Shown in pieces: positions 7,082 through 27,700 of a DNA stretch of 60,739 nt (within the stretch, counting starts at the first letter, position 1; each line of letters starts with the position of its first letter). The translations under genes and the position numbers were made by a program. The stretch is from the NCBI GenBank assembly GCA_007125585.1, contig SLCY01000023.1:1-60739 (forward strand), written 5' to 3'. The DNA comes from Bacteroidales bacterium (GTDB lineage: Bacteria; Bacteroidota; Bacteroidia; Bacteroidales; UBA7960). The notes beneath the pieces were generated by a model. The model ran no database searches. It saw only the letters and a list, made by a program, of their open reading frames with translations, and was not told the origin of the DNA.

Positions 7082-8441
7082 ACCGTTCGCCCCGTTCTTC
7101 AAAGTTTTTAAATGTATCGTAGCTGGCAGCAGCAGGCGACAGCAAACAGATCCTGCCCTCACGGGTAAGCTGTATGGCCTTTTTCACGGCCTCATCGAAA
7201 GATGCGGGACGGAAAAGGCGCTTTTTTTCAAATCCTTTGCAGGCTTTTGCAATGGAGATCATCCGGTCGCCCGCATCGCCGGTAAACAAAATGTTCATCA
7301 CTGATGACCTGGAAAGAAAGTCGATCAGCGGGATGTAGTCTACACCGCGGTCTTTACCCCCAAGAATAAGGGTTTCCGCTTCAGGGAAGGACATTATTGC
7401 TGCCATGGTGGCCTCCGGGATGGTGGCAATCGAGTCGTTGTAAAAAAGGATCCCTTTGAAAGTGCCCACATATTCCATGCGGTGCGGCAATCCCCTGAAG
7501 GTGGAAACAGCCCCGGGAATATGGTCTGCAGGGACCTGCAATACAAGGGCAGCAGCCACCGCGGCAGCGATATTCTTCAGGTTATGATGGCCGGGGATGA
7601 TGCGGTTTCTACATATCCGGGGAAACAACACCCGCTCCTGTCCATCCGAATAAACCATATCATCTCCGGAACAGCAGATGATGCCCGAACCCTGGCAAGT
7701 GCCTCCGAGCGTTATTGTCCGTGATGGCATATCAACAGAGGATACCAGCGATTGCAGGTGCGGGTTGTCCGCATCGTAAATGAAGACATCTTCTGCACCC
7801 TGCCATCTCACGATGTTCATCTTCGCCTGCTGGTATTCTCCGAAAGAGCTGTAATGGTCCAGGTGCTCTTCAAAGATGTTCAGCAGCACGGCAACTCGTG
7901 GGGAGACCTTTATGCCCTGGAGCTGGTGACTGCTCATCTCAAACACGATCACTGTATCGCTCCCAATATCATCGAGCAACTCAAAACAAGGTGTTCCGAT
8001 GTTTCCGGCAATTAACACGGGGCGTCCTGCTGTTTTGAGAATGTGATACAGCAGGCTGGCAGTGGTACTTTTTCCCTTTGTGCCGCTTATCCCAATAACC
8101 TGTTTTCTGAAAAACCCAAGGAATAGTTCTGTTTGCGAAGTGATGCGACCGGGAAGATCAAGTCCTGACAACTCTGAAAAAGGGATGCCTGGCGATTTGA
8201 TGATGATGTCGGCTTTTGTGAGTCCGCGGAGATATTCCGGCCCGAGAAACCACTGATCTCCCGGAGTTAAGCGCTCTGCAGCAATCGTTTCGCGCACCGA
8301 CCCGTTGCGATCGCAAATGATCAGGTCCTGATCCGGCAAGAATTGCTTTAAGCGACCGCAGGTTGATCGCCCTTCTTTGCCAAAGCCAAGAATCGCGACA
8401 CGTTTTCCTTTGAAAAGATCTTGAAATCGATTTTCAATCAT
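7056..8441 (-). CDS. murD2: UDP-N-acetylmuramoyl-L-alanine--glutamate ligase, probably MurD2 (L-glutamate-adding)
   Basis: Mur ligase that adds glutamate to UDP-MurNAc-L-Ala in the cytosol, 461 residues from the ATG at 8441. This start is fixed by an ATGA overlap with the upstream gene's stop. An N-terminal Rossmann-like domain has GFGKEGRS at 19-26; the ATP-binding domain has GISGTKGKSTT at 117-127, the FEMSSHQL segment and NIFEEHLDHY; the C-terminal Mur domain includes ILGGKDRGVDY and ends near residue 461. Its tight coupling to a MurL-like gene, rather than a place in a dcw cluster, suggests the MurD2 variant that accepts L-glutamate. Sequence alone does not prove the stereospecificity; ordinary MurD remains possible. 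Confidence 0.8.
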   Translation of the reverse strand: MIENRFQDLFKGKRVAILGFGKEGRSTCGRLKQFLPDQDLIICDRNGSVRETIAAERLTPGDQWFLGPEYLRGLTKADIIIKSPGIPFSELSGLDLPGRITSQTELFLGFFRKQVIGISGTKGKSTTASLLYHILKTAGRPVLIAGNIGTPCFELLDDIGSDTVIVFEMSSHQLQGIKVSPRVAVLLNIFEEHLDHYSSFGEYQQAKMNIVRWQGAEDVFIYDADNPHLQSLVSSVDMPSRTITLGGTCQGSGIICCSGDDMVYSDGQERVLFPRICRNRIIPGHHNLKNIAAAVAAALVLQVPADHIPGAVSTFRGLPHRMEYVGTFKGILFYNDSIATIPEATMAAIMSFPEAETLILGGKDRGVDYIPLIDFLSRSSVMNILFTGDAGDRMISIAKACKGFEKKRLFRPASFDEAVKKAIQLTREGRICLLSPAAASYDTFKNFEERGERFTFLVQNA

Positions 8442-9892
8442 GGGTACCGTTGCTGGGGTTCGCCGGACCATCCGTTTGCAATGCCGCCGGGATCCATTAA
8501 TACACTTTTTACAAGTTTTTCAAAACCGGGTGCCAGACAGTGGTCTGCATCAAAGTTACGGATATATTCAGCCAATGGCCTGTCCTGGTATTCGGGATAC
8601 CGTTCGCTGTCTTTATAATACGACAAAAGTGGGGGCAAACCCATGTGGTTGTTTAACCTGTTCTTCACGGTATGGGCCAGGGCGATGTTCACCTCATCGA
8701 TGGTGCCGACACATTCAAATGGTTTTGCATCACTGAGCCCGCACAGGTCATTGAGCGTTTCTTTCAATGCCGTGTCAGAGAACAGATCCCTGCCAAATAT
8801 ATTCATCAGGGCTCCGGGTGAGAGGAATGGTGACAGGACCACATAGGTAAAGAGGCATTTGGCGCATTTGCCGCACCATGTGTTTTGTTTGCTGCCCACA
8901 TTGCAGCTCCTGAACCTTGAGTGGTATTTTTTCTGACGGGAAAAGAGGGCTGCTATCTGCAATTCGTTCAGGGGCCTGAGAAGGCTGAAATAGCTGTGCC
9001 GGCTGTCAACATGATCAGCCACATAACTCCTGAAGTCCCTCTCGAATTCCAGCGACTTGCTGTACTGGTGGTTTATCCTGGTACCGGGGATGGAAGGTTC
9101 ACTGGCACTCGATTCATTCGAGAGGGCTATGTGCTTGATTGCCGCATTTTTCGCTGCAAAGAAAGAAACGAATGCCAACATGGCAGAAAATGGCGTGTGT
9201 CCGTTAAGAAACCCTTGCTTGTTAAGTTCCAGCAAAAGGGGGTCCATTTTCCGGTTCAGCGTGATGACTTCAGGGGGAGAAAAGCCTGCGGTTTCAAGAA
9301 CCTCACTGGTTGCACCGCGCGGGTTTACCACAAAAGGGACAATCTTGTACCCCGAACATTTCAGCACCTCCAGGCTGACCACAGAGTCTTTGCCACCGCC
9401 AACCGGGACGAGCACGGTGCCGGCATCTCCGGTAACCGGCGAAACATCTTTATCGGGCAACGGTCCACAGGCATCGGGAAATTCAAAATCTACCATTTCC
9501 GGTCCGGGCATGGGAATGCCATTGGTATAAAAAAATTCACCCAGCCCATAACGAAACAACTTTTTCCACCAGGTCTGTTGTTCAACCGACAAGAGATAGG
9601 GCTCTATTCGGATACGCGGAGAACAGAAGGCTTTCCAGTAGCTGAGCATCTCAATCATGCCCAGATGAAACACCAACAAGCGCTCTATACCTGGTTGTTG
9701 AAACAGCAGGTTGCGGGTTTTCCCAAAGTCAAAATACAGACGGGGATTGAAGGCATAATGGTCGCCGGCTTCGAACTCAAACGCTACCTCTGTATTGTTC
9801 TGATTTTGAAGAACATGAAAGCCCTTATAAGAGAAAACAGGATATGCCTTCCTTAACTCCCGGTATCTTTGTTGATGATCCTGGATTACCAT
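8438..9892 (-). CDS. murL: Probable UDP-MurNAc-L-alanyl-L-glutamate epimerase MurL
   Basis: A 484-residue protein with a PP-loop ATP pyrophosphatase signature, VPVGGGKDS at 162-170, the SNESSASEPS segment at 258-267, NHQYSKSLEFERDF at 274-287, and a cysteine group (C330, C340, C343, C346; WCGKCAKC) that probably binds metal. This layout matches MurL, which uses ATP to epimerise the terminal L-Glu of UDP-MurNAc-L-Ala-L-Glu to D-Glu. The neighbour agrees: its TGA stop overlaps the ATG of a Mur ligase by ATGA, so the two would be co-translated. Recognition is from family knowledge and context, not from a search. The alternative is an uncharacterised PP-loop ATPase. Confidence 0.78.
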   Translation of the reverse strand: MVIQDHQQRYRELRKAYPVFSYKGFHVLQNQNNTEVAFEFEAGDHYAFNPRLYFDFGKTRNLLFQQPGIERLLVFHLGMIEMLSYWKAFCSPRIRIEPYLLSVEQQTWWKKLFRYGLGEFFYTNGIPMPGPEMVDFEFPDACGPLPDKDVSPVTGDAGTVLVPVGGGKDSVVSLEVLKCSGYKIVPFVVNPRGATSEVLETAGFSPPEVITLNRKMDPLLLELNKQGFLNGHTPFSAMLAFVSFFAAKNAAIKHIALSNESSASEPSIPGTRINHQYSKSLEFERDFRSYVADHVDSRHSYFSLLRPLNELQIAALFSRQKKYHSRFRSCNVGSKQNTWCGKCAKCLFTYVVLSPFLSPGALMNIFGRDLFSDTALKETLNDLCGLSDAKPFECVGTIDEVNIALAHTVKNRLNNHMGLPPLLSYYKDSERYPEYQDRPLAEYIRNFDADHCLAPGFEKLVKSVLMDPGGIANGWSGEPQQRYP

Positions 9893-12305: not shown

Positions 12306-13646
12306 TTATACGTAACCCTGTGCGATCATCGCATCGGCAACCTTAACGAAGCCACCTATGTTGGCCCCTCTCACATAATTGATGAAATCGCCTTCCTTTC
12401 CAAACTCTGAGCAAGTCTTATGGATATTGATCATGATGTTATGGAGGCGCTGGTCGACCTCTTCCCTTGTCCATGACATGCGCAGTGCGTTCTGGCTCAT
12501 CTCGAGGCCTGATGTGGCAACACCGCCGGCATTGGCTGCTTTGCCAGGGCCGTAAAGGATTTTATTGGCAAGGAATACCTCCACTGCTTCCGGTGTGGAA
12601 GGCATGTTGGCACCTTCCGATACGCAAATACAGCCGTTTTTCACCAGTTCTTTGGCTTCCTCTTCGTTCAGCTCATTTTCTGTGGCACAAGGTAGTGCTA
12701 TATCGCATTTTTCCATCCAGGGCCGGGCAACACCTTCAACATATTTGCATCCAAACTCATCGGCATACTCACGGATTCTTCCGCGCTTGATATTTTTCAG
12801 GTTTTTCACATAATGCAACCTTTCTGCATCTATGCCATCCTGGTCGTAAATATAGCCGTTGGAGTCAGAGAGTGTAACCACCTTGCCGCCCAGTTCGATC
12901 ACCTTCTCGGTGGCAAACTGTGCAACATTGCCGGAACCACTGATGGCGACTGTCTTGCCTTTGATCTCCTCGTTGATGGTGGCAAGCATTTCCTGGGCAA
13001 AATATACCGTACCGTAACCGGTGGCCTCCGGGCGGATCAGGCTGCCCCCGTATTCAAGTCCCTTGCCGGTAAATACACCGGTAAACTCATTTCGGATCCG
13101 TTTGTACTGACCGTACATGAACCCCACTTCCCGGCCCCCAACACCGATATCACCGGCGGGGACATCGGTATCCGGACCAATATGCCGGAAAAGCTCCGTC
13201 ATCAGGCTCTGGCAAAACCGCATCACCTCCACATCTGATTTTCCTTTGGGGTCAAAGTCACTTCCTCCTTTACCGCCGCCAAGAGGCAAAGAGGTAAGGC
13301 TGTTCTTAAACACCTGCTCGAAGGCCAGAAATTTCAATACCCCCAGGTCCACCGTTGGGTGAAACCGCATTCCGCCCTTGTAAGGCCCGATGGCACTGTT
13401 CATTTCAATACGGTAACCGCGGTTTATCTGTACCTCCCCCTGGTCATCTATCCAGGGGATTCGGAAGATCACCACCCGCTCAGGCTCTATCATCCGCTCA
13501 AAAACCTTTGCCGCTTTGTATTTGGGATTCTCTTCCAAAAAAGGAATGATGGTTTCAGCCACCTCTTTTACCGCCTGGTGAAATGCCGTTTCTGCCGGGT
13601 TTTTGGCCACTACATAATCCATAATTTTTTTCAGTTGTGCATCCAT
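12306..13646 (-). CDS. gdhA: Glutamate dehydrogenase, NADP-type
   Basis: Hexameric glutamate dehydrogenase of 446 residues that aminates 2-oxoglutarate. Catalytic regions are the KGGMRFHP lysine motif, LPLGGGKGGSDFDPKGKSD, and the DTDVPAGDIGVGGREVGFMYG segment. In the coenzyme domain the signature SGSGNVAQF followed by TLSDSNGYIYD places a Ser after the second beta strand, as in NADP-dependent enzymes such as E. coli GdhA, so an ammonia-assimilating NADPH role is likely. A paralogue with an NAD-type signature lies at 20669-22006, and the two genes flank a pair of giant receiver/PEP-synthase-like genes. It is transcribed divergently from that pair. Confidence 0.93.
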   Translation of the reverse strand: MDAQLKKIMDYVVAKNPAETAFHQAVKEVAETIIPFLEENPKYKAAKVFERMIEPERVVIFRIPWIDDQGEVQINRGYRIEMNSAIGPYKGGMRFHPTVDLGVLKFLAFEQVFKNSLTSLPLGGGKGGSDFDPKGKSDVEVMRFCQSLMTELFRHIGPDTDVPAGDIGVGGREVGFMYGQYKRIRNEFTGVFTGKGLEYGGSLIRPEATGYGTVYFAQEMLATINEEIKGKTVAISGSGNVAQFATEKVIELGGKVVTLSDSNGYIYDQDGIDAERLHYVKNLKNIKRGRIREYADEFGCKYVEGVARPWMEKCDIALPCATENELNEEEAKELVKNGCICVSEGANMPSTPEAVEVFLANKILYGPGKAANAGGVATSGLEMSQNALRMSWTREEVDQRLHNIMINIHKTCSEFGKEGDFINYVRGANIGGFVKVADAMIAQGYV

Positions 13647-13937: not shown

Positions 13938-16900
13938 ATGACTAAAGACGCACGTAGCGATTCCCGTTTAACTGAACTCAACCTGCAAAAGGTAGATATT
14001 GAGCAGCCGCTTGCCATCAGCCAGGAGGAGATAAAGAAGCTGTTGGCAGAAAAGAGAGAACGACTTAAGGAGCTGAGTGCCATTCATAAGATCACGGCCA
14101 TCCTCAAGGAAGAGAAGCCGATCCATGAGATGCTTCAAAAGATCGTCTTTATCCTTCCGTCCGCGTGGCAACATCCTGAAGATGCGATTGCCCGAATAAA
14201 ATACGGAGAAAAAACATTTGTCAGCAAGGCAGGATTAATCGAGACCAGGTGGGCACAACGCAAAACATTTGAAACCATCGACGGAACAGAAGGATGTCTG
14301 GAGATATTCTATCAGAAAGAGTTCCCTGAACAGGATGAGGGGCCGTTTTTCATCGAAGAACGCCATCTGCTCAATAATCTCAGCAGTTTGATCACAGGCC
14401 ACCTAAACACCCAGATCGGCAAAGATCTTCTCAAACAGTCTGCGAATCGTGAGGAAGAAACCGTGGAGGTTCAGCATGAGCGTTCCCATGCAGCCATGAG
14501 CCGTCAGCTGCTTCAAAAATTCCTTAACAAACATAATTCCGACCGCGACATATACCACGACCTGATGCAATACAAGGTCCGTGAGATCCTGCTGGTGGCA
14601 AACCTCTACGATGCCTATATCATTGAACAGGAGGGGCGCTTTTTTGAGCAGGTCACCGGCGAATACTATCAGCTGAATCTTTCTTCAGCACCCCGCATCA
14701 CCGGCGTTTCTACCCCTGAGGAAGCCCTTGAGAAGCTGCAGGAAAAGCATTTCGACCTGGTCATTGTTATGATGGGTGTGGAAAAGTCTACCCCCATTCA
14801 GTTGAGCCGTATCATCAAACAGATCTACCACAATATCCCCATCTTCATGCTGCTCAACAACAACTCCGACATTGCCCTGTTCGAAGATGGCACCAAACCG
14901 ATCACCTCCATCGACAAGGTGTTTGTGTGGAACGGCGACTCCAAGGTTTTCCTTGCCATGGTCAAGTATAATGAAGACAGGATGAATGTGGAAAACGACA
15001 TTCGCATCGGGATGGTACGGGTGATCCTTTTGGTGGAAGACTCGGCCAAATATTATTCACGGTACCTGCCCATTCTTTATTCCATCGTCATAGAGCAGAC
15101 ACAACATTTGATCGAGGAGGTCAACACCGACGAGCTGTACAAGCTGCTTAAGATGCGTGTACGACCCAAGGTGCTCCTTGCTTCCAATTATAATGAAGCA
15201 GTCAGTTTGTTTAACAAGTACAGGGATAACCTGCTGTGCCTTATTTCGGATGTCAAATTTGAGAAAGACAGGGTGATAGACCCTGAAGCAGGTTTGAAGC
15301 TGGTGAAATATACCAAGGAGATGGTGCCCAACCTGCCCGCCGTCCTGCAAAGCTCCGACCCGGAAAATGCAAATGAGGCCTATAAACTGCAGTGCACCTT
15401 TATCAACAAAAACTCCGAGACACTGAAACAGGACCTGCAGAGCTTCATCAATTATTACCTGGGTTTTGGTCATTTTATTTATAAGGATGAGGATGGACGG
15501 CGCGACCTTGCCGTAGCACGCTCCATGAAGGAGTTCCAGACACACCTGAGGACCATTCCTGAAAAATCACTGGTTTATCATGCCAAGAAGGATCACTTTT
15601 CTCACTGGCTGATGGCCCGCGGGGAAATACAAATCGCCAAGCGAATCAAACCCCTCAAGGTGGAAGATTTTGAGTCGCCCGGCAGTTTGCGCAATTACCT
15701 GATCAATGTTATTGAGCAGTGCATCCATGATAAACAGAAAGGCAAAGTGATCAATTATGAGGAGTCTGCCATTCTTGACGAGACCAATGTGGTAAGCATG
15801 TCGCCCGGATCACTTGGCGGCAAGGGCCGGGGCTTGTCATTCATCAACATGATCATCAACAGCTTCAACTTCAATGAGCTGGTGCCTGACATTCGCATCG
15901 GCACACCGAAAACTTCCATCATCGGCACCGAGGAATTTGAACGCTTCATCCAAAACAACAAGCTGTACGATGAGATATACAGCGAAACGGATTATGATAA
16001 GATCAAGGCACTTTTCCTTTCGGGTCATTTAACGCCAACACTGCGCAAACGACTGAAGAATTATCTGTCGGTCATAGATAAACCTCTTGCGATAAGGTCT
16101 TCCAGCCTATTTGAGGACTCGCTGATGCAGCCTTTTGCCGGGATCTTTGACACATTTTTATTGCCGAACAACCATCCCGACCTGAATGTGCGGCTTGAAC
16201 AGGTCATGAGCGCCATCAAGCTGGTCTATGCTTCTATATTCTCACCCACTGCACGATCCTATTTTAAAGCGGTCAACTACAAGATCGAAGAAGAGAAGAT
16301 GGCGGTGATTATCCAGGAGGTGGTTGGCAAGGAATACAACGGATGCTTTTATCCCCACATCAGTGGGGTGGCACAGTCATACAACTTTTACCCATACTCC
16401 TATATGAAGCCGGACGAAGGCTTCGCATCCATTGCGGTGGGCCTGGGCAAATACGTGGTTGAAGGCGAGAAGACCTACCGCTTCTCCCCCATCCATCCCC
16501 AACTGGAAATGTATACCCCGAAAGAATTGTTTAAAAACTCACAGGTCCACTTCTACGCTGTTGACCTGGCCAAAAACGATTTGAACCTTCTCGAAGGTGA
16601 AGATGCCGGACTGACCAAGCTGGAGATTGACAAGGCAGAACAACACGGTACCCTGAAACACTGTGCCTCTGTTTATGATTTTAACAGCGAACGGACCATT
16701 CCGGGCATCACCGATCCCGGGCCACGGGTGGTCAACTTTGCCAATATCCTTAAATACAACTATATCCCCCTGGCCAAAACCATAGAGGTGATCCTCGATA
16801 TCATCTCCGAATCAATGGGCACGCCAATAGAGATCGAATTTGCCATCGACCTGAACAAGGACAAGGAAGGCCGTGCCGGCTTTTACCTGTTGCAGATCAA

Positions 16901-17486
16901 GCCACTGATCAAAAATATCATTGAGACCGAGATCAACATCGACAAGATAGACAACGACCGGCTGCTTCTTTATAGTGAAAATGGGATGGGCAATGGGCGA
17001 ATCACCGATCTTTACGATTTGATCTACGTGGACCTTGACAAATTCGACAAACTCAAAACAGAAAAGGTAAAGGATGAGATTGACAAGTTAAACAGCTTGA
17101 TGGTGAAGGAGGACAGAAAGTACATCCTTGTCGGCCCGGGCAGGTGGGGCACCCGCGACCGGTTCATCGGTATTCCGGTCAACTGGTCACAGATATCCAA
17201 TGCTCGAATCATCGTGGAGATGAGCATGGAAGACTTTCCATTGGATGCCTCGCTGGGATCACATTTCTTCCATAATGTAATCTCTATGAATGTGGGCTAT
17301 TTCTCCGTGAAACACGACGACCTGATCGATTATATCAATTGGGAAAAGCTGAATGAGACCAAACTGGTCAACAAGACAAAGTTCCTGAGGCATGTACGTT
17401 TTAACCGGCCCCTGGAAGTGATCATGGACGGGAAGAAGCGCCATGCGTTGATCTATTTCTCCAACGATGGGGAAAACGAAAAATGA
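13938..17486 (+). CDS. GAF-like/receiver-like protein with PEP synthase ATP-binding (PPDK N-terminal) domain
   Basis: A 1182-residue cytosolic protein. A GAF-like sensor region (about 40-165, with FILPSAWQHPEDAIARIKYG and GPFFIEERHLLNNL) comes first. A receiver-like domain at about 214-345 lacks a clear phospho-acceptor Asp (DLVIVMMG). A second receiver-like region at about 360-510 keeps an Asp near 438 (LISDVKF). The PPDK/PEP-synthase ATP-binding module covers about 620-1120, with LGGKGRGLSFI, IRSSSLFEDS and GPGRWGTRD. I see no phosphohistidine swivelling domain and no PEP-binding barrel, so a standard PEP synthase reaction is not expected. It may be a phosphotransfer or sensory protein; the true substrate is unknown. 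Its stop overlaps a 34-codon gene by ATGA. Confidence 0.8.
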   Translation: MTKDARSDSRLTELNLQKVDIEQPLAISQEEIKKLLAEKRERLKELSAIHKITAILKEEKPIHEMLQKIVFILPSAWQHPEDAIARIKYGEKTFVSKAGLIETRWAQRKTFETIDGTEGCLEIFYQKEFPEQDEGPFFIEERHLLNNLSSLITGHLNTQIGKDLLKQSANREEETVEVQHERSHAAMSRQLLQKFLNKHNSDRDIYHDLMQYKVREILLVANLYDAYIIEQEGRFFEQVTGEYYQLNLSSAPRITGVSTPEEALEKLQEKHFDLVIVMMGVEKSTPIQLSRIIKQIYHNIPIFMLLNNNSDIALFEDGTKPITSIDKVFVWNGDSKVFLAMVKYNEDRMNVENDIRIGMVRVILLVEDSAKYYSRYLPILYSIVIEQTQHLIEEVNTDELYKLLKMRVRPKVLLASNYNEAVSLFNKYRDNLLCLISDVKFEKDRVIDPEAGLKLVKYTKEMVPNLPAVLQSSDPENANEAYKLQCTFINKNSETLKQDLQSFINYYLGFGHFIYKDEDGRRDLAVARSMKEFQTHLRTIPEKSLVYHAKKDHFSHWLMARGEIQIAKRIKPLKVEDFESPGSLRNYLINVIEQCIHDKQKGKVINYEESAILDETNVVSMSPGSLGGKGRGLSFINMIINSFNFNELVPDIRIGTPKTSIIGTEEFERFIQNNKLYDEIYSETDYDKIKALFLSGHLTPTLRKRLKNYLSVIDKPLAIRSSSLFEDSLMQPFAGIFDTFLLPNNHPDLNVRLEQVMSAIKLVYASIFSPTARSYFKAVNYKIEEEKMAVIIQEVVGKEYNGCFYPHISGVAQSYNFYPYSYMKPDEGFASIAVGLGKYVVEGEKTYRFSPIHPQLEMYTPKELFKNSQVHFYAVDLAKNDLNLLEGEDAGLTKLEIDKAEQHGTLKHCASVYDFNSERTIPGITDPGPRVVNFANILKYNYIPLAKTIEVILDIISESMGTPIEIEFAIDLNKDKEGRAGFYLLQIKPLIKNIIETEINIDKIDNDRLLLYSENGMGNGRITDLYDLIYVDLDKFDKLKTEKVKDEIDKLNSLMVKEDRKYILVGPGRWGTRDRFIGIPVNWSQISNARIIVEMSMEDFPLDASLGSHFFHNVISMNVGYFSVKHDDLIDYINWEKLNETKLVNKTKFLRHVRFNRPLEVIMDGKKRHALIYFSNDGENEK

Positions 17487-17587
17487 AAATGGCAGACGAC
17501 TTTCTGCTGCAGGTCCTTGAAAGAGGCATGACGCCAGACTGTCAGATGCAACTGCGGTACAACAAGAAGAAAGTGATACGGGAATGA
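17483..17587 (+). CDS. Small 34-residue protein bridging two PEP-synthase-like genes
   Basis: An ORF of 34 codons plus stop. Its ATG (17483-17485) overlaps the TGA of the upstream giant gene and its own TGA (17585-17587) overlaps the ATG of the downstream paralogue, so both junctions are ATGA. Such double coupling is good evidence that it is translated, although the peptide is short. It is mixed-charge with an acidic/hydrophobic N-terminus (MADDFLLQVLERGM) and a basic tail (RYNKKKVIRE); there is no signal or membrane segment. No family is recognised. It could be a subunit or regulator of the flanking proteins, or only a leader for translational coupling. Confidence 0.6.
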   Translation: MKMADDFLLQVLERGMTPDCQMQLRYNKKKVIRE

Positions 17588-20562
17588 ATACAATCATCAA
17601 ATACAGGTACGACGAAAAGTACGCTACCGACAGCTATGAGTTCAAGGAGATATCCTATCAGGACCTGATGCAGAAGAGGATCATCAATGTGCTTCTGATC
17701 TGCAGCAACTATGATGCTTTCATGCTGGAGGAGGATGGGCGGATCAACGAAAAGATATTTCTTGAATATACCTCCAAGAACCTGCGTTACCCACCACAGT
17801 TTACCCAGGCCAGTTCATCGGAAGAGGCTTTCAGGCTGATGGAGGCCAAACACTTCGACCTGGTGATCACCATGCTCAACGTGGGAGAGATCGATTGTTT
17901 TGAGATGGCCAAGATGGTAAAAGAACGCCACCCCAAAATCCCCATCGTGGTGCTGACCCATTTCAGCAGGGAGGTGTCGATGAAATTGCGCAATGAAGAC
18001 CTGAGTTCCATCGACTACGTTTTCAGCTGGCTCGGCAATGCCGGCCTGTTGCTTGCTATCATAAAACTCCTGGAAGACCGCATGAATGCCCAGCACGACA
18101 TTGAGGAAGTGGGGGTGCAGGCCATCCTGCTGGTCGAAGACTCTGTCCGTTACTACTCCTCCTATCTTCCCACCATCTATAAAGTCATTTTTGATCAGAC
18201 CAATGAGTTGATGACGGAAGGACTCAATGAGCACCGCAAAACCCTGAGGATGCGCGCCCGTCCGAAGATACTGCTTGCAAAAACCTATGATGAGGCCCTT
18301 TCATTATACAACAAATACAAGGACAATCTCCTGGGTATCATATCCGATATCAGTTATGCAAAGGGTGGGAAAAGGGACGACCAGGCGGGCGTAAAACTTG
18401 CCAAGTACATACGAAAAAGGAACCAGCACATTCCCATCCTCCTGCAGTCATCAGAAAAGTGGGATGCCACCATCAACAAAGAAATTGATGTCAGCTTTAT
18501 CGATAAGTATTCCAAAACCCTGCTGATAGAACTAAAACACTACATCAAAGAAAATTATGGGTTTGGAGATTTCGTATTTAAAGACCACAACACAGGAATG
18601 GAGGTGGGCAGGGCAAACAATTTGCATTCCCTTCAGGTAAAGATTGCCAAGGCCGACCCTAAAGTGCTTGAATACCATGTGACAAACAATCATTTTTCAC
18701 ATTGGCTGAAAGCCAGGGCATTGTTTTCCATTGCAAACATCTTTGCACGGAAAAGCCGGGACGACTTCGACCACATAGAGGAGGTGCGAAGCTACCTGAT
18801 CGATACCATTGCCAATTACAGGCGCACCAAAGGGCGTGGCATTATTGCCAGTCATCTTGATGAATATGCGGTATTTACAAGGCTGGGCGATGGCCAGTTG
18901 GGCGGAAAGGCACGCGGGCTGGCATTTATTGACTCGGTGATCAACAGGTACAAGATCATGAACCACTGGGAAAATGTGACGGTGACCATTCCACGGACAG
19001 TGGTATTGTGTACCGACATCTTTGATGAATTCATGGAGGATAACGACCTCTACGATTTTGCCCTGTCGGATGTGAGTGACGAGGCTGTGCTTGAACGCTT
19101 TGTGCACAGTAAAAGCCCTTCGCGTATGCGGTCATTTTTAAAGGAGATCATCGACTTCTTTAAATCCCCGCTTGCCGTAAGGTCTTCCAGTTTGCTTGAA
19201 GATAGCCATTACCAGCCCTTTGCAGGTGTGTATTCCACCTACATGATCCCCAACAACCATCATGAACGCCATGTGCGCATCCAACAGCTCGACCAGGCCA
19301 TCAAAAGTGTATATGCCTCCGTATTTTTCAGGGAGAGTAAGTCGTACATAGAGGCCACGTCGAACGTAATTGACGAAGAGAAAATGGCCGTGGTGATCCA
19401 GGAAGTATCCGGACGTTCCTACGGAAAGATGTTCTATCCCACCATTTCAGGCGTTGCCCGGTCGGTTAATTTTTATCCCATTGGACCTGAAAAATACGGT
19501 GACGGTGTGGCCAACATCGCTTTTGGCCTGGGAAAAACGATTGTTGACGGAGGCATCTCCTTCCGTTTTTCACCCAGGTATCCCGAAAAATCATTGCAGC
19601 TTTCCAACACAGATATAGCACTTCGCGACAGCCAGAAAGAGTTTTACAGCCTGGACATGGACCCGGAAAAGTTTCGGCCGGCAGTGGATGAAACCCTCAA
19701 TCTGCATAAAACCCGCATCCGGCAGCTGAAAGGAGAATCTGCGCTGAAATATGTAGTCTCTACGTTTGACTATGAAGACCAGATCATTCGCGATGGGCTC
19801 TATGAGAATGGCACCCGCATCATCACCTTTGCCAATGTCCTTCGTCACAAATCCTTTCCACTTGCAGAGATATTGCAGGACCTTTTACATATAGGCCGCA
19901 AAGAGATGAATAACCAGGTGGAGATAGAGTTCACGGTAAACCTCGACATGCTCAAAGGTGAAAAACGGCAGTTCCATTTCCTTCAGATCCGTCCCGTGGT
20001 CGAGACACAAGAGAAAAACAGCGTCAAGATAGACACCCGTAATCCCGAAAAAGCCATCATCATCAGCCATAGCGCGCTAGGCAACGGGATCATTGAAGGG
20101 ATTCATGATGTCGTTTATGTTAAGCCCGAATCATTCGATGCTGCCAGGACCAAAGAGATCGCGGTGGTCATCGACAGGATCAACAAACAGTGCAGGGAAA
20201 AAGGCCTCAACTATATTCTTGTCGGCCCCGGAAGATGGGGCTCCAACGACCCCTGGCTGGGAGTGCCGGTGAAATGGGCACAAATATCAGCAGCCAGGCT
20301 GATCGTTGAATCCGGCCTGAAGGGCTTCCAGATCGACCCCAGCCAGGGAACCCACTTTTTTCAAAACCTGACCTCCTTCCGCGTTGGATATTTCACCATC
20401 AACCCCTTCCTGAATGAAGGCCATTATGATGTGGACTTTCTGAATAAACAAAAAGCCGACTACGAAGATGAACTTGTCCGGCACGTCCGCTTTACCCACC
20501 CCGTAACCATCAAAATCGACGGCACCCAAAAAACCGGAATCGTTTTAAAACCAGAAAAATAA
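17584..20562 (+). CDS. Receiver-like protein with PEP synthase ATP-binding (PPDK N-terminal) domain, second paralogue
   Basis: A 992-residue paralogue of the preceding giant protein but without its GAF-like N-terminus. A receiver-like domain at about 33-160 again lacks the phospho-acceptor Asp (DLVITMLNV). A second receiver-like region (about 178-330) keeps Asp in IISDISY and a conserved LLQSSEK. The ATP-binding PPDK/PEP-synthase module lies at about 430-930, with LGGKARGLAFI, VRSSSLLEDSHYQPFAG and GPGRWGSNDPW. As in the paralogue, no phosphohistidine or PEP-barrel domain is visible. The start is set by an ATGA overlap with the 34-codon gene. gdhA2 follows 106 bp downstream, possibly co-regulated. 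Confidence 0.8.
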   Translation: MNTIIKYRYDEKYATDSYEFKEISYQDLMQKRIINVLLICSNYDAFMLEEDGRINEKIFLEYTSKNLRYPPQFTQASSSEEAFRLMEAKHFDLVITMLNVGEIDCFEMAKMVKERHPKIPIVVLTHFSREVSMKLRNEDLSSIDYVFSWLGNAGLLLAIIKLLEDRMNAQHDIEEVGVQAILLVEDSVRYYSSYLPTIYKVIFDQTNELMTEGLNEHRKTLRMRARPKILLAKTYDEALSLYNKYKDNLLGIISDISYAKGGKRDDQAGVKLAKYIRKRNQHIPILLQSSEKWDATINKEIDVSFIDKYSKTLLIELKHYIKENYGFGDFVFKDHNTGMEVGRANNLHSLQVKIAKADPKVLEYHVTNNHFSHWLKARALFSIANIFARKSRDDFDHIEEVRSYLIDTIANYRRTKGRGIIASHLDEYAVFTRLGDGQLGGKARGLAFIDSVINRYKIMNHWENVTVTIPRTVVLCTDIFDEFMEDNDLYDFALSDVSDEAVLERFVHSKSPSRMRSFLKEIIDFFKSPLAVRSSSLLEDSHYQPFAGVYSTYMIPNNHHERHVRIQQLDQAIKSVYASVFFRESKSYIEATSNVIDEEKMAVVIQEVSGRSYGKMFYPTISGVARSVNFYPIGPEKYGDGVANIAFGLGKTIVDGGISFRFSPRYPEKSLQLSNTDIALRDSQKEFYSLDMDPEKFRPAVDETLNLHKTRIRQLKGESALKYVVSTFDYEDQIIRDGLYENGTRIITFANVLRHKSFPLAEILQDLLHIGRKEMNNQVEIEFTVNLDMLKGEKRQFHFLQIRPVVETQEKNSVKIDTRNPEKAIIISHSALGNGIIEGIHDVVYVKPESFDAARTKEIAVVIDRINKQCREKGLNYILVGPGRWGSNDPWLGVPVKWAQISAARLIVESGLKGFQIDPSQGTHFFQNLTSFRVGYFTINPFLNEGHYDVDFLNKQKADYEDELVRHVRFTHPVTIKIDGTQKTGIVLKPEK

Positions 20563-20668: not shown

Positions 20669-22006
20669 ATGAATTTAGAAAAGATAATGTCAGACCTGGA
20701 GCGAAAAAATCCGGGCGAAAAGGAGTTCTTACAGGCAGTAAGGGAAGTACTGGAAACCATCATCGATGTGGTTGCGGAAAATCCCAAATACCAGGCTGCG
20801 AACATCATTGAACGCATTACCGAACCCGACAGGGTGATATCGTTCAAGGTGGAATGGGTCGATGACAAAGGGAACGTGAATGTGAACAGGGGATACCGCG
20901 TGCAGTTTAATAACGCGATCGGTCCATACAAGGGCGGCTGCCGCTTTCACCCCAGTGTTACGCTGAGCGGACTGAAGTTTCTGGGATTTGAACAGATCTT
21001 CAAAAACAGCCTGACCACGCTCCCCATGGGCGGTGCCAAAGGGGGAAGCGACTTTGATCCCAAAGGGAAGTCACAGGCCGAGATCATGCGTTTCTGCCAG
21101 GCATTCATGAGCGAACTCTATAAATATATCGGCCCGCAAACCGACATTCCAGCAGGCGACATCGGTGTGGGTGGCCGTGAGATCGGGTATATGTACGGCA
21201 TGTACAAAAAACTTATTGGTGAGCATACCGGGACCTTCACCGGCAAGGGACGCAACTGGGGCGGAAGCCTGATCCGGCCGGAAGCCACCGGCTTCGGCGC
21301 CGTATTCTTTGCTGAAGAAATGCTGAAGACCAAAGGAGAAGCGATAAAAGGAAAAACCATTGCCGTCTCCGGCTTCGGTAATGTCTCATGGGGAGCCATC
21401 ACCAAGGCCACCCAGCTGGGGGCCAAAGTAGTGACCATCAGCGGCCCGGACGGGTACGTATACGATCCTGAAGGCGTGTCCAGCGAAAAGATCGACTACC
21501 TGCTCGAACTGCGCGCCTCCAACCAGGATATCGTAAAACCCTATACCTACGAATTCCCCAATGCCCAGTTCTTCGAAAGCAAGCGCCCATGGGAACAGAA
21601 AGTCGACATCGCCATGCCTTGTGCCATCCAAAACGAACTGGATGTGGAAGACGCCAAAAACCTGGTTAAGAACGGTGTTATCGCCATTTCCGAAGGGGCC
21701 AACATGCCCTGTACACCCGAAGCAGTGGAGATCATCCAGGAAGCCAGGATCCTTTACGGCCCCGGCAAGGCAGCCAATGCAGGCGGCGTGTCAACCAGCG
21801 GACTGGAACAGACACAGAATGCGATGATGCTTAGCTGGCCCGCCGAAGAAGTGGAAGAGAAACTGCACCAGATCATGAAAAACATTCACGAAGCGTGCAA
21901 AAAATTTGGCAAGGAAGAAGACGGCTATATCAACTACGTGAAAGGCGCCAACATTGCCGGGTTCATCAAAGTGGCCGACGCAATGATCGACCAGGGCGTA
22001 ATATAA
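20669..22006 (+). CDS. gdhB: Glutamate dehydrogenase, NAD-type
   Basis: A 445-residue hexameric glutamate dehydrogenase, paralogous to the gene at 12306-13646. The catalytic core is intact: KGGCRFHP, LPMGGAKGGSDFDPKGKSQ, QTDIPAGDIGVGGREIGYMYG. Its coenzyme region reads SGFGNVSWGA and TISGPDGYVYDPEG, the Gly-Pro-Asp form of NAD-specific clostridial enzymes, whereas the paralogue has the Ser form. It therefore probably works in glutamate oxidation producing NADH, or in the NAD pool generally; this is inferred from motif comparison. It is followed by a strong terminator and then a NADH-oxidoreductase gene set. Confidence 0.92.
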   Translation: MNLEKIMSDLERKNPGEKEFLQAVREVLETIIDVVAENPKYQAANIIERITEPDRVISFKVEWVDDKGNVNVNRGYRVQFNNAIGPYKGGCRFHPSVTLSGLKFLGFEQIFKNSLTTLPMGGAKGGSDFDPKGKSQAEIMRFCQAFMSELYKYIGPQTDIPAGDIGVGGREIGYMYGMYKKLIGEHTGTFTGKGRNWGGSLIRPEATGFGAVFFAEEMLKTKGEAIKGKTIAVSGFGNVSWGAITKATQLGAKVVTISGPDGYVYDPEGVSSEKIDYLLELRASNQDIVKPYTYEFPNAQFFESKRPWEQKVDIAMPCAIQNELDVEDAKNLVKNGVIAISEGANMPCTPEAVEIIQEARILYGPGKAANAGGVSTSGLEQTQNAMMLSWPAEEVEEKLHQIMKNIHEACKKFGKEEDGYINYVKGANIAGFIKVADAMIDQGVI

Positions 22007-22379: not shown

Positions 22380-22901
22380 ATGCGAATAAAACGAATCCAG
22401 CCACCCAAAAAGGATGCCCTTGTTGATGACAAGGTAAACCTATCCCTGCTCGACCCGTTGCTTGAAAAGTACAGGGATAAAAAAGGGAACCTTATTCCGC
22501 TGCTCCAGGGAACCCAGGATATTTTCGGTTACCTTCCAGGAGAGGCGTTTGCCAGAATCCATGAAGCCACCGGGCTCCCCCTGAACGAGATGTATGGTGT
22601 CGCCACGTTTTATGCCCAGTTCCGCCTTGTCCCCGCAGGAAAACACATCGTAAAAATGTGCCATGGCACAGCATGCCATGTCCAGAACGTAACAGCCATT
22701 ACCGATGAAATCCTCGACACACTGCAGATCAAAGACGGTGAAACCACCGGCGATGGGTTGTTTACCGTTGAAACGGTTGCCTGCCTGGGATGCTGTTCGC
22801 TCGCCCCGGTCATGATGATCGGCGAAGAGACCCACGGCAAGCTAACACCCAGGGAAGCCGTCAAGATCATACGGGAAATAAAACGCAGGGAAAACAACTA
22901 A
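22380..22901 (+). CDS. NuoE-like [2Fe-2S] subunit of an NAD(P)H-dependent oxidoreductase
   Basis: A 173-residue thioredoxin-like [2Fe-2S] protein homologous to NuoE, HndA and HydC. The N-terminal helical part has LIPLLQGTQDIFGYLP and MYGVATFYAQFRL; the cluster ligands are in the pattern CHGTAC (C98 and C103) and CLGCC (about C139-C143), as expected for this family. It starts a tight run with the NuoF-like gene (22 bp gap) and a NuoG/GltD fusion, and no membrane-subunit genes follow. The set therefore resembles soluble bifurcating or transhydrogenating complexes rather than respiratory complex I. Confidence 0.9.
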   Translation: MRIKRIQPPKKDALVDDKVNLSLLDPLLEKYRDKKGNLIPLLQGTQDIFGYLPGEAFARIHEATGLPLNEMYGVATFYAQFRLVPAGKHIVKMCHGTACHVQNVTAITDEILDTLQIKDGETTGDGLFTVETVACLGCCSLAPVMMIGEETHGKLTPREAVKIIREIKRRENN

Positions 22902-22923
22902 CACGAAAAAAGCATTGCCAACA

Positions 22924-24702
22924 ATGGGAAAAACCAAAGTGATCGTGGGACTCGGAAGCTGCGGCATCGCAGCCGGGGCCACCAAGACCTATAACGAGTT
23001 TGAACGCATACTGAAGGCCGACAAGCTAGACTACGAGTTGAAAAAGACCAGCTGCATCGGCATGTGCTACCGCGAACCCCTGGTGGAGATCATCGACGAC
23101 AGCGGCACCTATATGTACGGCGAAGTGAATGTGGTACGGGTAGATGAGATCATCGACAAGCACATCAAGAAGTTTTCGCCTATCCCCGAATATATTGTGC
23201 AATCGGACAAATACCCATCAAAAGACCAGCAGTTTTTCGACGGCCAGGTAAAGATCAGCCTGCGCAACTGCGGGCACATCGATCCCGAATCGATCGAAGA
23301 GTACGAATCGCAAGACGGGTACCAGGCGATCAGGAAAATCGCAACCCAGAACGTGCCTCCGGAACAGGTGATCCAGGATGTATTGGACTCGGGACTGCGT
23401 GGCCGGGGAGGCGGCGGGTTCCCCACCGGCATGAAATGGAAGTTTGCCCGCAATAATCCGTCCGAAAAGAAATATGTCATATGCAATGCGGATGAGGGCG
23501 ACCCCGGGGCATTCATGGACCGTTCAATCCTCGAAGGCGACCCCCACGGGGTGCTTGAAGGGATGATCATCTGCGGATATGCCATCGGCGCCAGCGAAGG
23601 ATACATCTACTGCAGGGCCGAATACCCCCTTGCCATAAAGCGGCTGAACCTGGCCATCGAACAGGCCAGGAAAAAAGGGTATCTCGGAAAAGGGATCTTC
23701 GGTATCCCGGACTTTGACTTTGACATTATCATCAAAGAGGGGGCAGGGGCATTCGTGTGCGGGGAAGAAACCGCCCTGATCGCCTCCATTGAAGGCTCCA
23801 GGGGCATGCCTCGGCGCCGCCCGCCGTTTCCCGCCGAAGCCGGCCTGTGGAAACATCCGACAAACATCAATAACGTAGAAACCTTCATCAACATTCCGTG
23901 GATCATACGGAACAGTCCGGAACAATACGCCAGCTACGGCACCGAAAAGAGCAAAGGTACCAAGGTGTTTGCACTGACTGGTAAGATCAATCACGGGGGA
24001 CTTGTGGAAGTGCCCATGGGGATCACCATCAAAGACATCATTTACAACCTGGGCGGGGGGATCACCGGCAACAAAAAATTCAAAGCAGTCCAGCTCGGCG
24101 GTCCCTCGGGCGGATGTATCCCCGAACACCTCAGCCATACACAGGTCGACTACGACTCGGTGAACGCCACCGGTGCGATCATGGGCAGCGGCGGCATGGT
24201 GGTGATGGACGAAACCACGTGCGTGGTTGATATCGCCAAATTCTTTCTCGACTTTACCCAAAAGGAGAGCTGTGGCAAATGCACCTTCTGCCGCATAGGT
24301 ACGCTGCGGATGCTTGAAACGCTCACACGTATCACCGAGGGAGAAGGGAAAGAGGGCGACATCGAAATGCTGGAGGAACTGGCTGAAATCATCAAAGACA
24401 GTTCACTGTGCGGCCTTGGCCAAACGGCGCCAAACCCCGTACTGACCACAATCCGGTACTTCCGCGATGAGTACGAGGCACATATCAACGATAAAAAATG
24501 TCCGGCGACAAGCTGCAAAAAGCTCCTCACCTACACGGTGATCGACGAAAACTGTACGGGGTGCATGGCATGTGCAAAAGCTTGTCCTGTAGATGCGATC
24601 GAAGGGGAGAAAAAGCAGGTGCACCATATCCTCCAGGATGCCTGCATCCGTTGCGGGGCATGTTTGAACAGGTGTAAATTTGATGCCATCCATATCGAAT
24701 AA
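22924..24702 (+). CDS. NuoF-like FMN/NADH-binding subunit with extra ferredoxin domains
   Basis: A 592-residue flavoprotein of the NuoF/HydB/HndC type that binds FMN and NAD(H). An N-terminal thioredoxin-like [2Fe-2S] domain (C13, C44, C48; GSCGIAAGA, CIGMCYREPL) is followed by the FMN/NADH core with RGRGGGGFPTGMKW and GAGAFVCGEETALIASIEG. The SLBB and [4Fe-4S] region has SCGKCTFCRIGT. A C-terminal pair of ferredoxin clusters has CTGCMACAKAC and CIRCGACLNRC. This arrangement is characteristic of bifurcating hydrogenase/Bfu-type B subunits, which suggests ferredoxin contact; respiratory NuoF lacks the C-terminal ferredoxin part. The ATG at 22924 is used rather than an upstream TTG. Confidence 0.92.
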   Translation: MGKTKVIVGLGSCGIAAGATKTYNEFERILKADKLDYELKKTSCIGMCYREPLVEIIDDSGTYMYGEVNVVRVDEIIDKHIKKFSPIPEYIVQSDKYPSKDQQFFDGQVKISLRNCGHIDPESIEEYESQDGYQAIRKIATQNVPPEQVIQDVLDSGLRGRGGGGFPTGMKWKFARNNPSEKKYVICNADEGDPGAFMDRSILEGDPHGVLEGMIICGYAIGASEGYIYCRAEYPLAIKRLNLAIEQARKKGYLGKGIFGIPDFDFDIIIKEGAGAFVCGEETALIASIEGSRGMPRRRPPFPAEAGLWKHPTNINNVETFINIPWIIRNSPEQYASYGTEKSKGTKVFALTGKINHGGLVEVPMGITIKDIIYNLGGGITGNKKFKAVQLGGPSGGCIPEHLSHTQVDYDSVNATGAIMGSGGMVVMDETTCVVDIAKFFLDFTQKESCGKCTFCRIGTLRMLETLTRITEGEGKEGDIEMLEELAEIIKDSSLCGLGQTAPNPVLTTIRYFRDEYEAHINDKKCPATSCKKLLTYTVIDENCTGCMACAKACPVDAIEGEKKQVHHILQDACIRCGACLNRCKFDAIHIE

Positions 24703-24770
24703 GGTGCATCCAAAGGCAACGACGCACGCGCAAAACATATATATCACAAACAACCAACCAGTTATACCAA

Positions 24771-27700
24771 ATGAGCGCATTGAATATCATCATAAACAAA
24801 CAGATCGTTAAAGGAGAGAAAGGAGAAACCATCCTGGACCTGGCCCGCCGCCTTGACATAGAGATCCCTACGCTTTGCAACGACGAAAGGCTGGAGCCGT
24901 TTTCTTCGTGCTACCTCTGTGTGGTCGAAGTGGAGGGAATGCGCGGCCTTCAGCCCGCCTGTTCAACAAAGGTCGCCGAAGGGATGCGCATCGAGACCAA
25001 CAACGAACGGGTCGAAAAATCGCGCAAGTTCGCCCTCGAACTTTTGGTAAGCAACCATTACGCCGACTGTACCCCACCCTGCCGCGAAGAATGTCCCGCA
25101 GGCGTAGACGTACAGGGATACATCTCCATGATCAGCAAAGGGAAACACCACGAAGCGGTCGAACTCATCAAACAAACCAACCCGCTCCCGGCTATCTGCG
25201 GCAGGGTGTGTGTGCGTCCCTGCGAACTGGTTTGCCGGAGAACCCTGCTGGAGGATGCGGGTGTTGGGATCGACTACCTGAAACGGTATACCTCCGATAT
25301 CGACCTGTACTCCGACACCAGGTACATGCCCGGTGTGAAACCGCCTACCGGGAAAAAGGTGGCGATCATCGGTGCGGGTCCCGGGGGACTCACCGCGGCG
25401 TACTACCTGGCACTCGAAGGGCACCACACGGAGATCTTCGAGGCAAGCCCCCATGCAGGCGGTATGCTCCGGTACGGCATCCCCCCCTACCGGCTGCCCA
25501 ACGATGTCATCGAAAAAGAGATCGAAGGGATAACCAAACTGGGCGTCCAGATAAACTACAACAAGAAGCTGGGCGGGAACTTCACCTACGAAACGCTGCG
25601 CGACACGTTCCACGCCACCGTCCTTGCCATCGGATCCCAGAAAGGCACCGGCATCGGCTGCGAGAACGACGACGCCGGCAACATCTTCTCCGGGATCGAC
25701 TTCCTGCGAAACATGGAGATGACCGGCCAGAAATATGACTTTGCCGGCAAAAGGGTCGCCGTTATCGGCGGCGGGAATACGGCGATGGACTGCTGCAGGA
25801 CGGCCAAGCGGTGCGGGGCCGAAGAGGTCACCGTCATCTACAGACGCACCGAAAAGGAGATGCCGGCAAACCCCATCGAGATCCACGAATCAAAGATCGA
25901 AGGGATCAACTACATGTTCCTTACCGCCCCGGCAAAGGTGAACAAGGACGAAAAAGGCAACCTCCGGTCGCTGACATGCATACGGATGGAACTGGGCGAA
26001 CCCGATGCCTCCGGCAGACGGCGACCGGTAAAAATTGAAGGATCCGAGTTCGACGTTGAACTTGACTATATCCTGGCTGCCATCGGCCAAAAGACGGTCG
26101 TTGACTTTATCGACGATATCAGCAGCCACGCAGAGACCCCCCTGAAGCTAAACAAGTGGGGCGACATCGACGCCGATCCTAAAACGTTGCAAACCTCCAT
26201 TGAAAGCGTTTTTGCCTGTGGCGACGGGGTCACCGGACCGGCTACCCTCATTGAAGCGATCGCCCAGGGCAAACTGGCAGCGCAGAGCTGTAACCAGTGG
26301 CTGGGCGGCCAGAAGGTGACCCCCCCCATTCCGGAGTTCCTGAGCAAAAAGGATCATTTCGAGAAACAACAGGAAGGGGACTACCAAGGGCTGTTCCCCG
26401 AACAGCCGCGCGAAGAGATGCCCACCCTGGAAGCACAAATGCGCAGCGACTTCGACGAAGTTGAGCTGGGATACACCGACGAAGCCGCCCGCCAGGAAAC
26501 ACATCGATGCCTCGAATGCGGCTGTTCCGAGCTGCATACGTGCGACCTGAAACGGTACGCCAACGATTACCAGGCCGAGCAAAGACGTTTTGGCGGTGAT
26601 TACAAAAAACATGCGGTTGACTTTGACCACCCGTTTATTGAGATAGACAACAACAAATGCATCCTCTGTTCACGCTGTATCCGGATCTGTTCGGAGGTCA
26701 ACGGGGCCAATGCCCTGGGACTGGTCAACAGGGGTTTCGAAACCTATGTGGCACCGAGCATGGACGGACGGCTGCGTGATACCCATTGCGATGCCTGCGG
26801 ACTGTGTATAGACACCTGTCCCACCGGCGCCATCACCGAGAACGTACCGTTCAAAACCATGCCCGTCCGCATGGAGAACGTCCAGACCATCTGTACCTAT
26901 TGTTCTGTGGGATGTGCGATAAAACTGCACCACAAAGGGGGGTTTGTGGCGCGCACCACCGGATATAACGGGTTGGTAAACAAAGACGGAAGCATTTGCC
27001 GCTTTCCCAAGTTCGGCTACCATTATATGAATGACGCATCGCGGGTCACTACCCCGATGCTGAGAGAAAACGGAACGTTCAAGCCGGTTTCCTTTGACAC
27101 GGCATACGATATCCTGCGCGAAAGAATGGAGGCATGCACTCCCGAAGAAAACGGTTTTTATATCGGTGCCCGCCTTACCAACGAAGAGATGTACCTGGTA
27201 CAGAAGCTGGCCAGGGCTGGTGTAAAAACCAACAACGTGAGCAGCTTCCATTACATGGACCGGGGATCGGGATATATGGACAACGCCAAATTCAGCGTCC
27301 CTGTCGAACTCCTTCGCAAAGCCAAAACATTGTATGTGCTCGACAGTGATATCAATACGGAACATGGGGTCGCCAGCTTTTACGCCTTCAGCACTCATGT
27401 CAGGGACCAGATCCCCCTGGAGCTGATCACCACCCGGGATGACAGCAGCATGGCCCACAAGGCCGGCACGGTGACCAGGATCCAGGCGACATATCCCTTC
27501 GTTAAAGCCGCCATCCATTACATACTGCACAACAAACTGGAAAACAGGGTTTACATTGATGACCACTGCGAAGGCTTCGAAGCGTACAGGGAACATGTTC
27601 TTCAGGAAGACTTCGACTCCCTGATCCTTGCCGCCGGATGCACACCGGCACAACTGGTAAGGTTCGCCGGCCAGTTTACCAGGGAAGCACAGGCCGTGAT

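Follow-up and report, generated by a model that had tools for sequence, protein, structure and literature searches.

The window, which is the whole stretch of 60,739 nucleotides that was analysed (contig SLCY01000023.1 of a Bacteroidales bacterium), contains two large adjacent genes flanked on both sides by genes for glutamate dehydrogenase (GDH, gdh), as listed in Table 1. The two open reading frames, of 1182 and 992 residues, had been described as paralogues in a first-pass annotation of the sequence; both are present and are named here A and B, and their products share 37% identity over 977 amino acids. The domain order common to the two proteins is a degenerate receiver, a full receiver, a DUF5752-like linker, an ATP-grasp domain and a C-terminal domain, to which A adds an N-terminal module. 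A, B and the GDH2-type gene lie on one strand, separated by 97 bp (A to B) and 106 bp (B to GDH2), and these short same-strand gaps suggest an A-B-gdh2 operon. A promoter and terminator scan of the window stayed at background level and provides no test of the operon, and an Rfam scan of the window gave no match.

Table 1. Features of the A-B-gdh locus. Coordinates are positions in the window.
Feature	Coordinates	Strand	Evidence
GDH1-type glutamate dehydrogenase (NADP type), divergent from A	12306-13646	-	NF006929, 757 bits
Protein A, 1182 aa	13938-17486	+	ORF list; A clade support 97/94 in tree
A, N-terminal sensor-like module, no family assigned	14001-14534	+	Alignment
A, receiver-like domain 1, without phospho-acceptor Asp	14553-14990	+	Response_reg E 2.7e-5; alignment
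A, receiver domain 2 (Asp438, Ser472, Lys491)	15009-15473	+	Alignment
A, DUF5752-like linker	15516-15725	+	PF19027 E 5.8e-5, at curated cut-off
A, PPDK_N-type ATP-grasp	15810-16916	+	PF01326 E 8.7e-41, 143 bits
A, C-terminal GPGRWG...GSHFF domain, outside Pfam	16944-17468	+	Conservation; Pfam scan
Protein B, 992 aa	17584-20562	+	ORF list; AF2 pLDDT 85.6; B clade support 98/91
B, receiver-like domain 1, without Asp	17671-18093	+	Response_reg E 4.7e-10; conservation
B, receiver domain 2 (E185/D186, D255 at 18346-18348, S289, K308)	18109-18573	+	Conservation; PleD fold match
B, PPDK_N-type ATP-grasp	18895-20049	+	PF01326; conservation; Foldseek 5hv1 E 5e-12
B, C-terminal domain GPGRWGSND...GVPVKW...PSQGTHFF (His924 at 20353-20355)	20035-20559	+	AF2; invariant residues
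GDH2-type glutamate dehydrogenase, behind B	20669-22006	+	NF010633, 816 bits

Two further elements of the window were recorded around this cluster. Directly behind the GDH2 gene, positions 22380-28463 hold a NuoE/NuoF-like pair and a 1230-residue fusion protein made of a GltD-like pyridine-nucleotide oxidoreductase and a NuoG/molybdopterin-oxidoreductase-like part, possibly a bifurcating NADH-dependent oxidoreductase; genes similar to this set are found near gdh or B in three other loci (L063, L082 and L091). At 8438-9892, on the minus strand, there is an open reading frame of 484 residues with no Pfam match, conserved beside the gdh cluster in L055, L056 and L063 (cluster c20).

The ATP-grasp domain is of the PPDK_N type (PF01326) and was matched at residues 625-993 of A (E 8.7e-41) and 438-822 of B (E 6e-39), in agreement with the earlier assignment of the ATP-binding half of PPDK or PEP synthase to both proteins. 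K442, R533, E782 and Q801 (B numbering) are invariant in 96 of 96 homologues and coincide in the alignment with the corresponding residues of PEP synthase. Across 14 diverse rows from the three deep clades of the family, the invariant elements are GGK, the R and the E-D of RSS..ED, EF, Q, GxGRWG, D, E, S and GxHFF. Judged by its invariant catalytic residues, the ATP-grasp domain is catalytically intact. With the AlphaFold2 model of B (mean pLDDT 85.6), the best Foldseek matches in the PDB were rifampin phosphotransferase (Rph; 5hv1, E 5e-12), through the ATP-grasp domain, and the two-receiver protein PleD.

The GPGRWG motif had previously been counted as part of the ATP-binding half. It belongs instead to a separate C-terminal domain outside the ATP-grasp (residues 818-992 of B, about 170 residues), for which AlphaFold2 gives a confident model of its own (pLDDT 93.6 and pTM 0.91 for the B domain modelled alone). 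His924, in the G[ST]HFF motif, is located at the N-terminus of a helix in this model and is invariant; its conservation in the set of 96 rows is partly due to the search motif used to collect the homologues, but homologues collected by protein or profile searches that made no use of this motif also keep it. The domain has no Pfam family and no sequence match in the PDB, and Foldseek found nothing below E 1e-3 in the PDB or among viral models, with no match to PPDK, PEP synthase or Rph. A divergent phosphohistidine swivel was considered, the order of helices and strands and the G[ST]H at the helix start being alike by eye, but is not claimed: HHalign against PPDK, PEP synthase and pooled swivels gave P values of 0.1-0.6, the level of the negative controls (receiver, linker, ATP-grasp and reversed), with PPDK against PEP synthase as positive control at 1e-25. 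The domain appears to represent an undescribed fold family. The genome was also searched for a stand-alone phosphohistidine partner and none was found, its only PF00391 being within a canonical PPDK of 923 residues. The pair may still be the 'phosphotransfer device' proposed for it, its ATP-grasp residues being intact, although no swivel was recognised by profile or fold and no separate PF00391 partner was found.

The alignment of 96 homologues bears out the previous description of the front domains, a first receiver-like domain without Asp and a second one with it. Response_reg was matched in receiver 1 at residues 72-137 of B (E 4.7e-10) and 252-309 of A (E 2.7e-5, below the curated Pfam cut-off); the acceptor position of this domain has no Asp and in B a conserved YDAFxLEEDGR motif replaces the acid pair. 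Receiver 2 has D255 (B numbering) in 95 of the 95 rows with a letter at that position and also keeps E185, S289 and K308, so that the acid pair (E185/D186), the Asp, the Thr/Ser and the Lys of a response regulator are all in place. No dedicated histidine kinase gene is evident among the open reading frames closest to A and B. The DUF5752-like linker, at residues 527-596 of A, had escaped the first reading. The N-terminal module of A, conserved in the alignment, recurs in another protein that the genome encodes, a PAS-like sensor, and is tandemly repeated in some A orthologues of 1397-1550 residues, which fits a sensory input; the 'GAF-like sensor' announced for this region stands as a conserved sensor-like module, and no Pfam or PDB profile match confirms its putative GAF identity. 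Orthologues of A of about 1400-1550 residues with extra tandem N-terminal modules are located at L037:3714-8363, L038:6397-10587 and L043:6840-11075. The layout of A and B is like that of two-receiver response regulators (PleD) or of PorX, with an enzymatic output, in Bacteroidota, in having two receivers in tandem, of which one is degenerate and the other complete, before an enzyme domain. It differs in the output, which is GGDEF or PglZ in those proteins and a PPDK-type ATP-grasp in A and B, and in the existence of core-only homologues without receivers.

Family members were identified in 57 of 59 near relatives and, within the order, in 102 of 121 genomes, a recurrence well above anything chance would give, and also in other classes of Bacteroidota, the phylum within which the spread was surveyed; one further locus (L082) comes from a MAG labelled Delongbacteria. 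The tree contains three deep clades: A (support 97/94), B including core-only forms of 580 residues (98/91), and a distant clade (100/100). In the distant clade, four of the five members scanned in full end in a nucleotidyltransferase domain (PF01909), giving forms of 1060 residues, an architecture that A and B do not share. Distant homologues joining a dikinase-type ATP-grasp to this Pol-beta-type nucleotidyltransferase (PF01909) were recorded at L166-L171, L172-L178 and L180, beside a different gdh clade. This sister clade, with its C-terminal NTP_transf_2 domain beside gdh, recalls the GlnD/GlnE-type nucleotidyltransferase regulators of nitrogen metabolism; the domain is absent from A and B. 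A literature search found no description of the A/B family.

The linkage to gdh was counted within 6 kb in an even sample of 121 genomes from the order. A gdh gene was present beside 34 of 87 B matches and 20 of 58 A matches, where about 0.7 and 0.5 respectively would be expected by chance, an expectation that treats genomes as independent and so overstates the significance; many of the linked genes are within 1 kb of A or B. The type of gdh follows the paralogue. B is accompanied by the GDH2 type in 29 of 34 cases (29:5), mostly on the same strand, and A by the GDH1 type in 15 of 20 (5:15), mostly in opposite orientation (Fisher p 2e-5). A adjoins B in only 12 of 58 cases, so the two gdh pairings are largely separate. 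Loci fetched by homology alone have gdh recurring beside the family in Bacteroidales, Parabacteroides, Phocaeicola, Lutibacter and Gillisia. Outside the class, 20 loci were selected before their gdh content was examined, and 17 of them contain gdh, often in several copies (GDH-B-GDH-B-GDH). The receiver-less cores of 580 residues and the nucleotidyltransferase forms of 1060 residues also adjoin gdh, and the genes concerned include a gdh clade with only about 34% identity. A and B belong to an ancient family that is found beside gdh across Bacteroidota.

About 60% of the B genes and two thirds of the A genes in the order have no gdh within 6 kb, part of which is explained by fragmented contigs. 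Of the 121 genomes, sixteen contain gdh but no family member and four a family member but no gdh match, and the co-occurrence of the two by presence or absence in these genomes was not significant (p 0.08). In several families KorA and KorB, a 2-oxoacid:ferredoxin oxidoreductase whose substrate was resolved only to 2-oxoacid, directly precede A-B, and the KorAB and gdh neighbours point to the 2-oxoglutarate node. The link to nitrogen or glutamate, originally drawn from the position between two gdh genes, is now upheld by the synteny conserved across the phylum, the paralogue-specific pairing and the KorAB neighbours. Separately, several Bacteroidales families have, behind B and in the same orientation, a gene for an SMC-like coiled-coil protein of some 535-550 residues (cluster c8: L126:12962-14572, L115:12942-14543, L120, L122, L123, L132, L134 and L248); where B has no adjacent gdh, this protein might be another partner for it.

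In the genus Bacteroides the B gene was identified in 60 of 60 genomes searched. According to the title of a 1996 paper by Baggio and Morrison (J Bacteriol 178:7212; listed among the references of PMC4539542), one or more gdhA-linked genes act in trans on GDH activity in Bacteroides thetaiotaomicron. The length of the B gene is 3.0 kb. In that early work a 3-kb downstream segment was reportedly needed in trans for GDH activity in Escherichia coli and is said to have resisted disruption in the host. One Bacteroides genome (L286) has the order maeB, GDH1, catalase, B and GDH2, with B between two gdh genes. In B. thetaiotaomicron, BT_1970 and BT_1973 are presumably the gdh genes. BT_1971 is a catalase in two published mentions, which the order in L286 fits, so that BT_1972 would be the B orthologue between two gdh genes. 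B could plausibly be the trans-acting gdhA-linked factor of the 1996 report. The idea that B immediately follows GDH1 throughout Bacteroides was considered and rejected, since only 3 of 30 loci have this arrangement (tail to tail); in the others catalase or other genes intervene between GDH1 and B, or B is divergent to GDH2.

We give about an even chance to the proposal that A and B are ATP-dependent proteins dedicated to regulating GDH, A the GDH1 type and B the GDH2 type. The linkage to gdh is kept in the core-only forms and in those with core and nucleotidyltransferase, so the core is the part that most likely targets GDH, with the receivers as added inputs; with an intact ATP-grasp, ATP-dependent control of GDH is the simplest reading. 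This core, the ATP-grasp together with the family-specific C-terminal domain and its invariant His at a helix start, would draw on ATP in its action on GDH, either by phosphoryl or nucleotidyl transfer to the enzyme or by synthesis of a small effector. The receiver with Asp, the degenerate receiver and, in A, the sensor-like module would set this activity according to the carbon/nitrogen or redox state. We infer GDH as the target, the regulatory effect and the use of ATP chemistry, and against the proposal it must be said that gene linkage is not function.

Other readings start from the resemblance to the dikinases. Automatic annotation would make A and B ordinary PEP synthase or PPDK, based on the PF01326 match, and a Parabacteroides homologue is named 'PEP/pyruvate-binding domain-containing protein' in the database. 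The ATP-grasp K, R, E and Q are indeed common to all of them; however, A and B have no match to the PEP/pyruvate-binding TIM barrel (PF02896), the chain ending after the C-terminal domain, and no PF00391 swivel was detected in them by Pfam, HHalign (at control level) or Foldseek. Full-length PEP synthase models reach 52 of 883 bits at best, far under the cut-off, and the canonical PPDK is encoded elsewhere in the same genome. This identity is accordingly extremely improbable, and the first-pass view that the pair is no ordinary PEP synthase is supported, its report of no swivel and no barrel holding at the Pfam and profile level. Rph (5hv1, 5fbs) also combines a PPDK-type ATP-grasp with the lack of a PEP barrel, but Rph also comprises a RIF-binding domain and a His swivel that can be recognised as such, whereas A and B have the front receivers and the unassigned C-terminal domain. 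The Rph model NF041857 gave 24 bits, restricted to the ATP-grasp, against a cut-off of 999, and neither the RIF-binding middle domain nor the C-terminal His swivel of Rph was found in A or B. A small-molecule dikinase, phosphorylating a metabolite of the glutamate/2-oxoglutarate pathway through His924 of an unrecognised swivel, would turn the gdh linkage into a metabolic and not a regulatory one. The intact PPDK-type ATP-grasp, the C-terminal domain directly following it like the swivel in PPDK and PEP synthase, the swivel-like appearance of the AlphaFold2 model by eye, and the 2-oxoglutarate common to the KorAB and gdh neighbours are in its favour. We consider it unlikely all the same, given the HHalign and Foldseek results for the C-terminal domain, the lack of a substrate-binding barrel or an Rph-like RIF domain, and the fused receivers and sensor modules, which point to signalling.

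The domain set of A and B could also be read as an internal phosphorelay, in which ATP would phosphorylate the C-terminal His and this in turn the receiver-2 Asp, a self-phosphorylating response regulator on a PPDK-type kinase. One chain does contain the full receiver set, the intact ATP-grasp and the invariant His, but no swivel has been demonstrated in the C-terminal domain, and the core-only and nucleotidyltransferase homologues, which do not have the two receivers, keep both the core and the gdh linkage. Since these homologues still adjoin gdh, the receiver Asp cannot be the general acceptor, and such a relay is quite improbable. Of the overall interpretation offered by the first reading, the glutamate link and the distinction from PEP synthase are therefore retained and the relay to the receiver Asp is dropped as a general mechanism. 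GDH is a classical adenylate-regulated enzyme. A nucleotide or energy sensor or scaffold, whose ATP-grasp would bind ATP or AMP without catalysis and couple the adenylate charge to GDH by protein contact, would agree with this, with the conserved core sitting beside gdh and with an acceptor domain not having been identified. All three deep clades, however, preserve the catalytic K, R, E and Q without variation, which a pure binder would have no need to do, and this reading is judged improbable, if slightly less so than the relay.

A regulator of GDH remains the preferred reading, and its fullest form is held as a tentative and rather doubtful one. In this form A and B would be the first PEP-synthase-type ATP-grasp enzymes with a metabolic enzyme as substrate, an ATP-driven, two-component-gated activator that would modify GDH via a new His-bearing C-terminal domain, and B would be the trans-acting GDH factor of Bacteroides from 1996. 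Three things are new here: a linkage to GDH that is matched to the paralogue throughout the phylum, a C-terminal domain not described before, and a testable candidate for that factor.

GDH is a main route by which Bacteroidales, among them Bacteroides, the dominant genus of the human gut, assimilate ammonia and catabolise glutamate. Its control in this order is poorly understood, and a paralogue-matched partner with an ATP-grasp and a complete receiver is a concrete candidate for it. Through B, the old report of a trans-acting gene for GDH activity becomes open to a simple co-expression test. A and B could connect signal transduction to the 2-oxoglutarate/glutamate junction.
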